Assembly (NCBI GenBank): GCA_002729235.1
Contig: PBTY01000080.1
Coordinates: 1 to 38,528, forward strand
DNA: 38,528 bases
Source of the DNA: Rickettsiales bacterium
GTDB lineage: Bacteria > Bacteroidota > Bacteroidia > Cytophagales > Cyclobacteriaceae
Direction: 5' to 3'
Shown here: one piece after another, positions 20,428-24,685 of the stretch
Position numbering within the stretch: the first letter of the stretch is position 1
How the letters are laid out: every line of letters begins with the position of its first letter
Notes under the pieces: model-generated
The model's input: the letters and a program-made list of their open reading frames with translations, nothing else
Database searches by the model: none
What the model was told of the DNA's origin: nothing
Position numbers and translations under genes: made by a program

Positions 20428-21306
20428 ATGACAAGAAGGCTTTTCATTGTAGCCAACCCAACAACTGGTACCAAACAACTCGAAATCATCCTTCGTGAAT
20501 TGATGGATTTCTGTGTGGCTAGGGACTTTGAATTTGAAATATTCCTGACTGCTGCTTCTCAGAATGCCTGGAAAACAGTGGAGAAGCATTTTGATGAAAC
20601 CTACACCGACCTGGTCATAGTGGGTGGAGATGGTACGATCAACGAAGCGATCAATGGACTGAAATATCCGGTACCTGTTTCAATCATTCCAAACGGATCT
20701 GGTAATGATTTTGTCAAAAACATCAACATTGGTGAGGACCTGGAAGATCATATTCAGGTGCTTAGATCAGGCAAGGTTCATTCCATTGATTTGGGTGTTT
20801 GCAATGGACGCAAATTTGTCAATGGCGTAGGTATTGGGTTTGATGGTCAGATTGTTGCAGACATGCAACAGAAGAAAAGCTTTTTAAAAGGCCCGGCGAA
20901 ATACTATTCTTTTGTACTAAGGATACTCGCTACCTACAAATCCAGGGTCTTCCGATTTACTCAAGATAAGCATCTTCAGCAAAAAGAATTGATATTACTG
21001 ACGGTAGCCAATGGCACTACGTTTGGTGGTGGCTTTAAGCTCACCCCAGAGGCCGAAGTTGATGATAGTATTCTGGATGTTTGTGAGATTGGTAAAATCA
21101 GTGGCTTCAAACGATTCATGAATATTCATCGACTCCAGGAAGGCACACATGATAAATTACCAGAAGTGAAGTTTTCGAGATGCAAACACCTACATGTGGA
21201 TGAAAACCCAGACCTTCATGCACATATTGATGGGGAGTATTTCGGTCATCCTCCATTTGAAATCGGTATCCTTCCAAATGCTCTTAAAATAAGAGTGAAA
21301 GGTTAA
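20428..21306 (+). CDS. Diacylglycerol/YegS-type lipid kinase
   Basis: 292 aa from the ATG at 20428; an in-frame TTG at 20389 would add 13 residues (AVDFATTVRHRS) that are not typical of the family. The DAGK catalytic domain is clear: FIVANPTTGT at the N terminus, the nucleotide-binding GGDGT motif at 66-70 (VGGDGTINEAINGL), and PNGSGNDF. The C-terminal beta domain ends in the usual HIDGEYF-type strand. It should phosphorylate diacylglycerol or a similar lipid at the inner membrane using ATP. The 3' end overlaps that of lgt by four bases on the opposite strand (TTAA). Whether the product feeds phospholipid recycling after Lgt-type reactions cannot be told. Confidence 0.93.
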   Translation: MTRRLFIVANPTTGTKQLEIILRELMDFCVARDFEFEIFLTAASQNAWKTVEKHFDETYTDLVIVGGDGTINEAINGLKYPVPVSIIPNGSGNDFVKNINIGEDLEDHIQVLRSGKVHSIDLGVCNGRKFVNGVGIGFDGQIVADMQQKKSFLKGPAKYYSFVLRILATYKSRVFRFTQDKHLQQKELILLTVANGTTFGGGFKLTPEAEVDDSILDVCEIGKISGFKRFMNIHRLQEGTHDKLPEVKFSRCKHLHVDENPDLHAHIDGEYFGHPPFEIGILPNALKIRVKG

Positions 21307-22079
21307 TTCGTTTTCTTCTGCTTCTTCACCACGATCATTACGACTATTGTTACGGCAATGATAATGAGTGAAATCAATTGGCTGTGGGATAAAATTCCAT
21401 CAATGATAAACCCTCTGCGTACGTCTCCGCGGAAAATTTCGATAATACCTCGACCAACAGAGTACATGATGATATAAATGAAGAAAAGCTGTCCTTCAAA
21501 TCGATTGTGACGCTTCATCATCAACAACACCACCAAAATGATGGCAATCCACGTTACTTCATACAGCTGAGTAGGGTGTAATGGCACATTCAATGGCTCT
21601 GCCTGGCTTACAGGATCTGTGAAAGTCACTCCCAGAAAACTATCCGTTGGTAGACCATGACAGCAGCCCGCAAAAAAACATCCCAAACGACCACACATGT
21701 GAATAATACAACCTGTGATGGCTATTCGATCAAGCAATGCCCAAACAGGCCACTTCTGCTTTCGGAAATACCAAATGACTGTGGGAATCACGAAAAGTAA
21801 CGATCCATAAAAAACGAACCCGGTTCTAAACCCCTTAAACATGTTGGAAGGTGTTCCGAAATAGTATCCAGGGTCTTCAAAGTAGAAAAAGACTTTTCCC
21901 CCAACAAATGCTGCTACTATGATTAGTATCGCCAGGTTTTGAATTTTGTCTGGTGTAATTCCCAGTTCTCGCTTGACGGTGGTGGACATGTAGAAATAAC
22001 CCAATGTGGCTCCCAGCATGATCATGAAGCCATAGGTGTGAACTGTAAAATCGCCAATGCTGAAGAGTTCCGGGTGCAT
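21303..22079 (-). CDS. lgt: Prolipoprotein diacylglyceryl transferase family protein (variant signature)
   Basis: 258 aa with about seven hydrophobic segments. The N terminus (FTVHTYGFMIMLGATLGY) and the HPTQLYE motif (168-174) are typical of Lgt, as are Arg210, Glu214 and Arg217 in GRGIIEIFRGD. Lgt moves diacylglycerol from phosphatidylglycerol to the lipobox cysteine of prolipoproteins, needed for the lipoproteins encoded nearby. The canonical GRxGNFxNxExxG signature instead reads GRLGCFFAGCCHG (130-142): Arg131 is kept, but cysteines replace the asparagine and neighbouring positions. This cysteine-rich form exists in other Bacteroidota and Deltaproteobacteria annotated as Lgt, so it may be a real transferase or a paralogue. 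It converges on the lipid kinase with overlapping stops. Confidence 0.85.
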   Translation of the reverse strand: MHPELFSIGDFTVHTYGFMIMLGATLGYFYMSTTVKRELGITPDKIQNLAILIIVAAFVGGKVFFYFEDPGYYFGTPSNMFKGFRTGFVFYGSLLFVIPTVIWYFRKQKWPVWALLDRIAITGCIIHMCGRLGCFFAGCCHGLPTDSFLGVTFTDPVSQAEPLNVPLHPTQLYEVTWIAIILVVLLMMKRHNRFEGQLFFIYIIMYSVGRGIIEIFRGDVRRGFIIDGILSHSQLISLIIIAVTIVVMIVVKKQKKTN

Positions 22080-22178
22080 GGTTTGGTCTTAAGTTTTTAG
22101 GTTCAAGGTTCTAAGATAACGCCACTACAGGACATTCTATTATCTGGAGCCTTATTAGCATGCTTTAGTTGGAATCGT

Positions 22179-22235
22179 CTACTTGAACAGTTTTCGCATC
22201 CTCTTGCTCCAAGAACTTTTCAGCAACACTGGATC
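22179..22235 (-). pseudogene. Possible tail of a truncated host gene next to the nuclease island
   Basis: Directly past the stop of the nuclease gene the minus strand reads DPVLLKSSWSKRMRKLFK and a stop, in a frame different from the nuclease. A second frame over the same bases reads EKFLEQEDAKTVQVDDSN and a stop at 22165. Both look protein-like, and neither has a start. GC over 22171-22230 is 26/60, like the host genes and unlike the 18/60 of sampled island lines. The first reading, with DPV followed by a basic tail, recalls the end of YidD proteins, which I believe neighbour lgt in some Bacteroidota. This is a guess; both readings may be chance. Confidence 0.25.
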
Positions 22236-24085
22236 TATTTAGCTATAGATTTTAAAATCCTATCTTCTTGAATCAAAACATCTCTCATGAATAAATTATG
22301 AGGAAGCGTTTTGTGTTTTGTTTCCTTAAATCCTTCAAGAATTAAATTCAAAGATTTTGCAGTGATTAATGATAGGTTCAATTCATAATCCAAACCACAT
22401 TCCTTAATAAAATCATCAGAAAACTCCGGTGCAACAAGTAACGACTTGATTACTTTATAGCCATTCTTTTCCGCCAATTGAATATAAGACTTAAGCTGTC
22501 TTGAAACGGAACTAAACTTATTATATCCACTTTCTTTAACCGATTTACACTCAATTAAAATAAGGTCCTTTTCAGATATTTTGACCACAATGTCCGCCTT
22601 GTCTTTACTGGTGTTGATCGATTTTCTAAGATCTTCATCGACCTGAAAGCCAAGCTTGGAAAGAATTTTACGAGTTAAATCCTCAAATAATATTCCAAGT
22701 TCACTTTCCTTTACTTTAATGCCATTTTCTTTCAAACCCGCTAAATCTCGATATCCTACTAATTCATAGTTTTCTATATAAAGATTTTCGGCATCTTTAA
22801 AATTCTCTAGAATATTTTCAACAAGACTACCTCTTGTTTTTATCCCTTTCTTATCACAGAACTTTGTAAGAGAATCAGAAGGAATAATCTCTAAAACATC
22901 TTTTGGTTTAATATTATAATCAAGCAGATAAGAGCTTCGCATTACATTTTCTTCCTGTAACTCAAATTCCTTTTTAATGAGATCTTTAATCTTTGGTAGG
23001 GTCTCTGTAAGCTCTGTCAGTAATTTTTCATATCCATCTACAGAAATACCGACCTTGTCATCCGCTTCAATTTCATCAAAGTATTTTACAAGATTCGCAA
23101 GTTTATCATCAAGTGTAGCTCCTCCTATTTTAGGGGATATTCCAAGGTTCTTATCACAAAGTTCATTGACAAACTTCTTACGGTCAGTTATTGCCAAATC
23201 AGGTTTATAAATATCAGTCGATAATACTGCATGCATGGAAATGCCTTCATTTATTATCTCTTTAATCTTTTGATCAATGGACTGCCTCCAATCAATATTA
23301 TGTTTTTTGCATACCAAATTAATTTGAGGCTCTCTGAGTTGTCTTAGAATTCTCCTAAAATACTTATCCGCAATTTCTTTCCCTTTAATCTTTCTGATCA
23401 ATGTTACGATTTCATCAGCAACATATACTACGTTGGTTTTCTTTGAAAAAAACACCATCCCAAGATTTCTCAGTTCAGTAATTATTTCATCAATTTCCAG
23501 CTGCTTGAGAGGAATGATCATATAATTGATCAACTTGATCTCTTCGATCGAAAGTTCAAGATTAGTTGAGAGTGTATTTAATATAGTTTGCTCGTCAAAT
23601 GTGATTTTTCTCTCTTGATTGTTGAGGTCGTCATTGACATAAGCCGTGTGAACGCATGCTTTATAAATGAGATAATCTCTTTTCCTACTCTCATCTAAGT
23701 CCGATTTTTCAGCACTCAACTCTGATTCAAAAACCTTTATCTTCTTCTTTAATTGCTTAAGTTCGGTATCATACAATCGTGATAACCAATCTTGCTTCAT
23801 AATACAATTTCCATCCCTTATCAGAATGTCTGTTAGTATATCTACTTGTGAAGTTGATTTTTGAAACTCATCATATAAATAGCTCGAAAACTCATTCTTT
23901 AAGAGATTAAAAACTCTGGATATATTTAAACTATCCATCGCCTTTAAATCACCACTTGCATCATTAAGAATTTTATCAATTTCTTTTATCTGCTTTGGTT
24001 TATCTGCAATTAGATTATCAATTATTTTCAGAAATGAATTTTTCTCAAAGGAATTGAGATTATTAAGGATCTTCTCCAGTTTCAT
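22235..24085 (-). CDS. Uncharacterised protein with C-terminal PD-(D/E)XK (Mrr-like) nuclease domain
   Basis: 616 aa, soluble, strongly helical and lysine-rich, with no signal peptide. The last ~160 residues form a restriction-endonuclease-like fold: Glu468 in the first helix (GILFEDLTRKILSKLGF), Asp498 (KADIVV), then Glu512-Cys-Lys514 (LILIECKS) thirteen residues on, and a later Q-containing helix (SRQLKSYIQLA). Just before it, ~403-427 (SDSLTKFCDKKGIKTRGSL) resembles a SAP-type DNA-binding helix pair. The first ~400 residues match no family I recognise; ~90-130 looks coiled. GC is about 30% on two sampled lines versus 48-50% in flanking lgt and thioesterase, which indicates transfer. No methylase, helicase or integrase is adjacent, so it would be a stand-alone nuclease. 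An anti-phage role is inference. Confidence 0.85.
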   Translation of the reverse strand: MKLEKILNNLNSFEKNSFLKIIDNLIADKPKQIKEIDKILNDASGDLKAMDSLNISRVFNLLKNEFSSYLYDEFQKSTSQVDILTDILIRDGNCIMKQDWLSRLYDTELKQLKKKIKVFESELSAEKSDLDESRKRDYLIYKACVHTAYVNDDLNNQERKITFDEQTILNTLSTNLELSIEEIKLINYMIIPLKQLEIDEIITELRNLGMVFFSKKTNVVYVADEIVTLIRKIKGKEIADKYFRRILRQLREPQINLVCKKHNIDWRQSIDQKIKEIINEGISMHAVLSTDIYKPDLAITDRKKFVNELCDKNLGISPKIGGATLDDKLANLVKYFDEIEADDKVGISVDGYEKLLTELTETLPKIKDLIKKEFELQEENVMRSSYLLDYNIKPKDVLEIIPSDSLTKFCDKKGIKTRGSLVENILENFKDAENLYIENYELVGYRDLAGLKENGIKVKESELGILFEDLTRKILSKLGFQVDEDLRKSINTSKDKADIVVKISEKDLILIECKSVKESGYNKFSSVSRQLKSYIQLAEKNGYKVIKSLLVAPEFSDDFIKECGLDYELNLSLITAKSLNLILEGFKETKHKTLPHNLFMRDVLIQEDRILKSIAK

Positions 24086-24154
24086 TTTGGGCGGTAAATT
24101 GGTGAATGATCCGTTAATTTAAATAATATTGGTAAGATCCTAACTAACAGACAA

Positions 24155-24637
24155 CTACTTAAAAGGATTGTCTCCTTTGTGGGTACTACTGTCAAACACT
24201 CGGATAGCAATCACATCTGCCTCAGCGGTAACTTCACCTTCCACTGTGGCCGTGCATGTCATCACCGTCTTTTTGCCTTTTACTTCCGTGACTTTCGCTC
24301 GTAATTCAATGACTTTGTCATTTGGTGTGGGTTTGACGTATTTTACCGTAATGGTTCCAGTGGCATATCGGTAAACTGGGTCACTATCCAAATAACGGTC
24401 TTCTCGGCGATAGGCATCAGCCATCGCTGTACCCATACAGTGACAGTCAATCAGCGTGGCTAAAATCCCTCCGTTAAGCAAATTGGCCCATCCGTGGTAC
24501 TTTTCCTCTGATTGCCAGAGGCAAACTGCCTCCTCACCTTCCCAGAAACTCCTGATCTGTAGCCCGTTCATGTTGTTTATTCCGCAGCCGAAACAAACAT
24601 TTTCCGGCATATGTAATTGAAAATAATCTTTCTCCAT
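24155..24637 (-). CDS. PaaI-type hotdog thioesterase
   Basis: 160 aa from the ATG at 24637; an upstream in-frame TTG at 24667 would add ten residues and approach the divergent gene. The hotdog fold is shown by the central helix GWANLLNGGILATLIDCH with its N-G-G turn and the following strands (TGTITVKYVKPTP and RAKVTEVKGKKTVMTCTATV). An N-terminal CFGCG motif is typical of a PaaI-like subgroup. It likely hydrolyses acyl-CoA or other thioesters, and it is divergently placed from an acyl-CoA synthetase, which suggests linked fatty-acyl-CoA metabolism. Both genes would start within about 50 bases and share a control region. Confidence 0.88.
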   Translation of the reverse strand: MEKDYFQLHMPENVCFGCGINNMNGLQIRSFWEGEEAVCLWQSEEKYHGWANLLNGGILATLIDCHCMGTAMADAYRREDRYLDSDPVYRYATGTITVKYVKPTPNDKVIELRAKVTEVKGKKTVMTCTATVEGEVTAEADVIAIRVFDSSTHKGDNPFK

Positions 24638-24646
24638 CCTGTTATC

Positions 24647-24654
24647 TAATTTTG
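24647..24654 (+). promoter_or_regulatory. -7 box candidate for the acyl-CoA synthetase operon
   Basis: TAATTTTG is an exact match to TAnnTTTG and lies 31 bases before the ATG at 24686. No good TTTG at the -33 distance was found, so this rests on one element and its position. Confidence 0.4.
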
Positions 24655-24685
24655 GGGTGTACTTCAAGGCCTTAAATTATACAAT

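Follow-up and report, generated by a model that had tools for sequence, protein, structure and literature searches.

The stretch of DNA considered here (the window) comprises 38,528 nucleotides (nt) of contig PBTY01000080.1, from GenBank assembly GCA_002729235.1, a genome labelled Rickettsiales bacterium and placed by GTDB in the family Cyclobacteriaceae of the Bacteroidota. Between two core genes, it carries a single intact open reading frame (ORF) on the minus strand, running from ATG to stop and encoding a protein of 616 amino acids (aa), described here as a putative solitary nuclease. A first inspection of the letters without database searches, hereafter the sequence-only reading, had pointed to this large ORF and to its position as one gene between core genes, both of which are borne out: lgt lies on its downstream side and a 4HBT-type thioesterase gene on its upstream side. 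It is the sole copy found in its own genome (6.55 Mb). The same reading had set a GC content near 30% against 48-50% in both neighbours. The gene is indeed AT-rich (31.8% GC), but lgt has 42.7%, the thioesterase gene 45.2% and the whole window 40.8%, so that the contrast, though real, is smaller than was thought.

The site between lgt and the thioesterase gene, whose state in relatives had been proposed as a check, is empty in all five other species of the genus: lgt there adjoins the thioesterase orthologue with no gene between them, and the spacer measures roughly 33-177 nt, compared with 2075 nt in the window. Hence, the nuclease gene is a one-gene insertion between core genes. DNA similarity between the window and the same-genus species G002 (locus L091) ends near position 22174 and restarts near 24153, which indicates that the nuclease gene is the only sizeable content of the insert. 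The ends of the insert showed no convincing terminal repeats, and a tRNA-linked insertion is not supported, a tRNA lying within 1 kb at only 3 of the 80 loci that carry the homologues described below.

Homologues were collected by a pattern scan with one genome per species. Of the 106 obtained, the 80 best were retained; each of these is full length, with a match of 611-618 aa, and shares 54-66% identity with the window protein. The family is PHROG 34709, whose profile the window protein matches over nearly its whole length. No function is assigned to PHROG 34709, and open-access searches brought up no paper about it. Its members are spread over Bacteroidota and Pseudoalteromonas, and remote relatives occur in haloarchaea as well as in one haloarchaeal virus; the more distant members, about 35% identical, are located on three large Pseudoalteromonas replicons. 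With its own genome counted, the gene is present in 6 of 59 relatives (7 of 98 when searched by profile) and in none of the five other species of the genus, while across the phylum it was found in 3 of 395 genomes, namely its own, that of one other member and that of one remote relative. In the tree, the window protein pairs with a Crocinitomicaceae protein, and four proteins from its own taxonomic family sit in four places. Together, the empty site in five of five same-genus species, the patchy presence in 6 of 59 relatives and the four scattered positions in the tree give good support to the horizontal acquisition of a gene with an intact PD-(D/E)XK core. The distribution is mobile, patchy and accessory, as expected of a single-gene defence system, and inheritance at the site is not vertical, the pattern that the sequence-only reading had set against such a role.

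The 80 loci fall into 76 neighbourhoods when loci with two shared close neighbours within three genes are joined. This is an upper figure, since several further pairs share one close neighbour (including L049/L070, L057/L060, L072/L086, L031/L045 and L011/L025) and short contigs can share little. At 75 of 77 loci, the nuclease gene exceeds its companion genes in AT content, and at 48 of the 77 it is the lowest-GC gene, where 6.3 would be expected; three loci were omitted from this count for having fewer than three genes to compare with. Five small metagenome contigs assigned to other phyla (L009, L012, L014, L020 and L079) may be mis-binned and were not used as proof of transfer. Locus L096 entered the tree only as a 333-aa piece, and two sequences were left out of every alignment, the fragment L006 and L002 (G010:C94), a member of the family that a single in-frame stop codon has apparently inactivated.

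Glu468, Asp498 and Glu512-x-Lys514, in which the sequence-only reading had recognised a nuclease core, are the same in all 88 aligned sequences, the broken copy, the fragment and the later loci L096 and L133 being excluded from this alignment. The C-terminal domain thus shows the conserved E, D and (D/E)xK in a core fold that mark the PD-(D/E)XK superfamily, and both hhalign and Foldseek match it to nucleases, so that the triad lies in a nuclease-like domain. No match exceeds a curated threshold at any point of the window protein. The domain had been called Mrr-like, a label better replaced by FokI-cleavage-domain-like. In hhalign comparisons, it matched a four-sequence FokI_cleav_dom set with a probability of 85.2 (reversed control 0.2), as against 10.5 for 15 Mrr_cat proteins (reversed control 0.6). 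Pfam Mrr_cat reaches 16 bits in the window protein (E 0.013), below the cut-off of 21, and membership in the Mrr family was rejected because of this sub-threshold score and the low profile probability. These comparisons suggest that the cleavage domain of FokI is a nearer relative of the domain than Mrr is, a ranking that is suggestive rather than final since the two reference sets resemble each other (hhalign probability 65.9) and all profiles are small. In Pfam searches, 36 of 81 members show Mrr_cat at E<=0.1 (best 6e-4), and FokI_cleav_dom is found neither in the window protein at E<=1 nor among the best 25 of 37 families matched in the 81 members.

When the whole predicted model was compared with the PDB by Foldseek, FokI came first (E 1.8e-3, probability 0.98) and EndoMS second (probability 0.98), with no match at E 0.001 or better. 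A sequence search of the PDB with the family profile returned one chance-level match only. The window protein resembles the type IIS enzyme FokI (FokI_cleav_dom, PF09254) in that a C-terminal PD-(D/E)XK cleavage domain stands behind a larger N-terminal part. The active-site motif of FokI is Asp-x-Lys, whereas that of the window protein is Glu-x-Lys, and no methyltransferase gene was seen adjoining the window gene. With Mrr (type IV restriction; Mrr_cat, PF04471), it shares the PD-(D/E)XK core and differs in its N-terminal half as well as in the sub-threshold score. Other PD-(D/E)XK matches are weak and confined to few members: Cas4 (PDLC00943) in 5 of 81 (best 2e-6), PDC-S05 (PDLC04877) in 16 of 81 (best 3e-4) and, by Pfam at E<=0.1, Card1_endonuc in 4 of 81 (best 3e-5) and NucS_C in 3 of 81. 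A PADLOC match of the window protein to PD-T4-7 (E 0.0008) was seen in 1 of 81 members and covers a helical stretch only; it was treated as chance. The rank of EndoMS and the few NucS_C matches would fit a NucS/EndoMS-like nuclease of DNA repair or recombination, and a gene that moves alone would fit a selfish homing-type element, neither having a role in defence. Such an explanation is judged improbable: the patchy presence and the empty site are a misfit for a core repair gene, as are about 76 neighbourhoods among 80 loci for homing to one target.

The sequence-only reading had also noted that the N-terminal part lacks a recognisable family. This agrees with the searches, which gave nothing above curated thresholds and no solved fold for residues 1-460 (no match to the PDB at E<=0.001; best E 0.075, probability 0.12). 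AlphaFold2 predicts the whole protein with a mean predicted local distance difference test (pLDDT) score of 86.5 and a predicted template modelling (pTM) score of 0.74, and residues 1-460 alone with 84.3 and 0.81, respectively. This half is helical in the models and, within the family, nearly as conserved as the nuclease. A remote family of full-length homologues, about 21% identical, aligns with the window family over 476 columns (hhalign probability 96.8). It was found in two Bacteroidota-phylum genomes (L097:787-2337, minus strand, and L103:1501-3051), on the Natrinema plasmid pNVE500 (L105:5842-7482) and in the Halorubrum virus Humcor1 (L106:5860-7500), the last two copies being annotated as hypothetical and that of pNVE500 lying near an integrase and an N-6 methylase. 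In L097, Pfam recognises a SAP domain (E 3e-10) and, weakly, FokI_cleav_dom (E 0.005). This SAP and FokI-like family, which is also uncharacterised, differs from the window family by its Asp-x-Lys active site in the alignment and by the Pfam SAP domain of L097.

From the remote alignment and the predicted secondary structure, a winged-helix-like segment and SAP-like repeats were tentatively assigned (Table 1). The N-terminal part matches the remote family over columns 136-339 with a probability of 96.2, and the winged-helix-like segment alone with 29.6. The earlier claim of a SAP-like segment is plausible: the SAP domain of L097 aligns to about residues 246-281 (repeat 1), although Pfam reports no SAP domain in the window protein and the short segments compared alone reach a probability of only 12.4. 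Repeat 2 gives 90.8 with the segment that follows the remote SAP domain, itself not recognised as SAP, 59.6 with repeat 1 and 0.5 with the remote SAP domain, and repeat 3 gives 24-27 with repeats 1 and 2 and 2.9 with the remote SAP domain. Because such segment-by-segment comparisons are mostly weak, the names winged-helix-like and SAP-like are working labels. A TerB-like domain, considered for residues 80-190, was rejected; it is absent among the Pfam and Foldseek matches listed, and segment 76-195 matches the remote family with a probability of 0.1.

Table 1. Position and basis of the features of the nuclease gene, its site in the window and the channel genes at other loci
Feature	Position	Strand	Basis
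Nuclease gene, putative solitary nuclease of PHROG 34709	22235..24085	-	ORF; PHROGs E 1.9e-113, residues 1-614
Inserted segment relative to same-genus species G002, approximate	22175..24152	.	similarity break vs locus L091
lgt, core neighbour, downstream side	21303..22079	-	Pfam LGT E 4e-58
4HBT-type thioesterase gene, core neighbour, upstream side	24155..24667	-	Pfam 4HBT E 3e-4
PD-(D/E)XK nuclease domain, residues 461-590	22316..22705	-	invariant residues, hhalign, Foldseek
Catalytic residue E468	22682-22684	-	alignment
Catalytic residue D498	22592-22594	-	alignment
Catalytic residues E512-C-K514	22544-22552	-	alignment
Helical N-terminal region, residues 1-130	23696..24085	-	AlphaFold2; no known family or fold matched
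Winged-helix-like segment, residues 162-235, tentative	23381..23602	-	helices then strands 211-213 and 218-220 in both models
SAP-like helical repeat 1, residues 246-281, putative DNA-binding	23243..23350	-	aligned to SAP domain of L097
SAP-like repeat 2, residues 298-341	23063..23194	-	hhalign to remote family
Possible SAP-like repeat 3, residues 391-430	22796..22915	-	weak; perhaps the segment seen in the sequence-only reading
Ion-channel genes, voltage-gated-type	L020:3578-4357; L022:11851-12376; L035:11861-12616; L077:2279-3055; L082:11841-12647		PF00520

Relatives of the gene are carried by prophages. Scans of viral contigs found members on three distinct prophage-type contigs (L098, L125 and L126). 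L098 encodes a head maturation protease recognised by PHROGs, together with capsid and primase-like genes identified only by reading of ORFs; the nuclease gene is opposite in strand to these phage-type genes and adjoins the phage-defence candidate PDC-M48B (E 1.5e-100). At L098:8088-9811, beside the nuclease gene, the MBL-fold PDC-M48B is accompanied by a seemingly membrane-bound protein of 230 aa with no Pfam match. On L125, tape-measure and baseplate genes are followed by the nuclease gene, with one 171-aa ORF of opposite strand in between, and L126, 87% identical to L125 over 6.7 kb, has its nuclease gene interrupted by the contig end.

Defence genes are also found near two of the three Pseudoalteromonas copies. 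In Pseudoalteromonas sp. HL-AS2 (L089), SIR2 (E 7e-178) and HerA (4e-155) follow the nuclease gene, and further on lie a 2TM/SLATT effector-type protein and the type IV restriction gene mREase_IV (5e-210). The P. donghaensis copy (L088) likewise has mREase_IV nearby (7e-209). The sites of the three copies (L087, L088 and L089) appear to include a variable hot spot beside the nuclease gene. A defence role of the family is therefore supported only indirectly, by the relatives on three prophage-type contigs and by the defence genes near two of three Pseudoalteromonas copies.

The explanation that accounts best for these observations, held with somewhat better than even confidence, is that of a mobile stand-alone endonuclease, which would most likely protect its host or carrier prophage from other mobile DNA. 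We infer that the N-terminal half binds DNA and senses the trigger, as the sequence-only reading had also supposed, and that the enzyme acts against phages. The N-terminal part, with its winged-helix-like segment and SAP-like repeats, would bind DNA and recognise a mark, structure or partner on invading DNA, and this recognition would license the C-terminal domain, probably as a FokI-like dimer, to cut the invading DNA. In a minority of lineages, an adjoining voltage-gated-type channel may add a membrane effector. For an uncharacterised prophage-carried protein family, this offers a hypothesis of function together with a defined active site and a plan of the domains.

Several observations weigh against this interpretation. 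The viral-contig scan with the window protein found no contig, as did that with L097, and phage records contain no match to the window protein at E 1e-5. The Pseudoalteromonas sp. CF6-2 copy (L087) has no listed defence gene downstream. More generally, PADLOC showed no clear defence excess beside the 80 loci: 71 models were matched among 127 immediate-neighbour proteins and 40 models among 109 control proteins located six genes away, in counts of models rather than distinct proteins, no model in the lists shown matching more than one protein. For these protein sets, L059, a near-copy of L055, and neighbours shorter than 90 aa were dropped. The best 25 of 124 Pfam families among immediate neighbours are mostly metabolic or transport families. 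Hence, of the single-gene defence system first proposed, the horizontally acquired single gene stands, whereas an enrichment beside defence genes was not clear. On the structural side, the whole-chain fit to FokI is poor, with template modelling (TM) scores of 0.20/0.22 and a root-mean-square deviation of 21, and a TM score near 0.2 implies that the domains of the two proteins are arranged differently. The recognition domains of FokI are not matched either, the N-terminal model finding FokI at E 6.5 only (probability 0.05), and the AlphaFold2 models were built on shallow alignments with an effective number of sequences of about 2. Finally, some methyltransferase-like genes do occur around family members or remote relatives. 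A protein of 1274 aa with an NPPY-type motif, four genes from L022, could be a type IIG enzyme, one hit to a type IIG restriction-methyltransferase model occurs among the 127 immediate neighbours, the L098 contig encodes a ParB-type DNA methyltransferase about 8 kb from the nuclease gene, and some 5 kb from the Natrinema relative lies an N-6 DNA methylase.

In the 38.5-kb window, neither of two methyltransferase queries found a match, and the ORFs of at least 90 aa contain no NPPY-type motif. Coarse searches with one C5 and one N6/N4 query likewise found no methyltransferase among the 1105 neighbours of the 80 loci, of which 11 contain NPPY-type motifs, the 1274-aa protein near L022 being one of the 11. 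By this coarse test, a classical type II pair was not seen here, though it may occur for some members, since methyltransferases lie at a distance from relatives on mobile elements. A type IIS-like restriction enzyme orphaned from its methyltransferase, the latter being lost or located elsewhere, would be in line with FokI as first PDB match and with the FokI set as the better of the two profile matches, as well as with the distant methylases of the L098 contig and the Natrinema relative. Such an enzyme is nevertheless improbable, given the negative results in the window and in the two single-query searches among the 1105 neighbours, an N-terminal half unlike that of FokI and the many solitary intact copies that would have to tolerate self-cleavage.

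If no methyltransferase guards host sites, the trigger itself would have to separate self from non-self, as in type IV systems, or the enzyme would act only once activated, as in abortive infection. The first possibility corresponds to a type IV (modification-dependent) restriction enzyme, whose winged-helix/SAP-like arm would read a modified base on phage DNA while the FokI-like domain cuts nearby. The solitary state of the gene is consistent with this proposal, no methyltransferase having been detected in the window nor, by the coarse test, around the 80 loci, and so is the type IV enzyme gene near two Pseudoalteromonas copies. One source (PMC11037411) describes winged-helix-fused endonucleases such as DpnI, HhiV4I and others as known type IV enzymes that are expected to stand alone; the window protein shares with them a winged-helix-like segment joined to a nuclease in a stand-alone gene, and differs from them by its nuclease type, its domain order and its SAP-like repeats. 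However, Pfam, PADLOC and NCBIfam reported no domain known to read modified bases, and the winged-helix assignment is itself tentative (29.6). Moreover, Dam methylation is expected in Pseudoalteromonas, and a reader of GATC-m6A would then be excluded in that genus. The type IV proposal is hence considered possible, if rather unlikely.

The second possibility is a nuclease triggered by a phage protein, which would stay silent until a phage component binds its N-terminal half and would then cut DNA indiscriminately. The large N-terminal half with its conservation close to that of the nuclease, the carriage by prophages and the occasional coupling to a channel gene argue for such an abortive enzyme, which is still deemed unlikely: Pfam reported no NTPase, TIR or nucleotide-signal domain, and no sensor fold is recognisable. 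Should the mobile endonuclease indeed restrict phages without a protecting methyltransferase, it would represent a FokI-like nuclease with another form of self/non-self discrimination, contained in one compact gene.

An Ion_trans gene (PF00520) is located directly downstream of the nuclease gene and on the same strand at 5 of 76 loci (L020, L022, L035, L077 and L082). The five voltage-gated-type channel genes are homologous, the three that were scanned individually matching PF00520 at E 4e-30 to 3e-24, and their spacing from the nuclease gene ranges from an 11-nt overlap to a 103-nt gap, the L022 channel being cut by the contig end. The five loci have no other common neighbour within three genes, and a profile of the five channels found no further copy in the loci examined. 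Ignoring shared descent, the chance that all five fall at that position, which is occupied by 62 of the 1105 neighbours, is 5e-7. Channel and nuclease genes are equally AT-rich in four of the five loci, and neither is AT-rich at L082. The window copy has no ion-channel partner, and six genomes of its genus contain 1-5 channel-like matches each. Channel and nuclease may form a two-gene variant. Such a recurrent neighbour would join a DNA-cutting enzyme to a membrane effector, which is an unusual combination. A broader proposal, in which the family forms the core of an undescribed modular defence system with a FokI-like DNA-cutting sensor acting alone or with a co-transcribed voltage-gated-type channel, so that detection of foreign DNA would lead both to its cutting and to opening of the channel, thereby depolarising the cell, is improbable.

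Two further patterns around the channels were set aside. A separate clade of the partner channels received a support of only 63/90 in a 12-row tree, and the membrane proteins encoded immediately behind the nuclease gene (5 of 14, including four ion channels, versus 32 of 160 controls) show an excess that is unconvincing by itself. At L032:11842-12546, an 8xMP membrane-protein gene has a 4-nt overlap with the nuclease gene at its end.

Other nuclease-type matches were encountered in the genus. The window's own genome (G000) contains three further Mrr_cat matches, on contigs C36, C103 and C70, two of which have identical scores. The same-genus species G001, which does not contain the window's family, encodes a different FokI-cleavage-domain protein of 446 aa (L099:1438-2778, minus strand).

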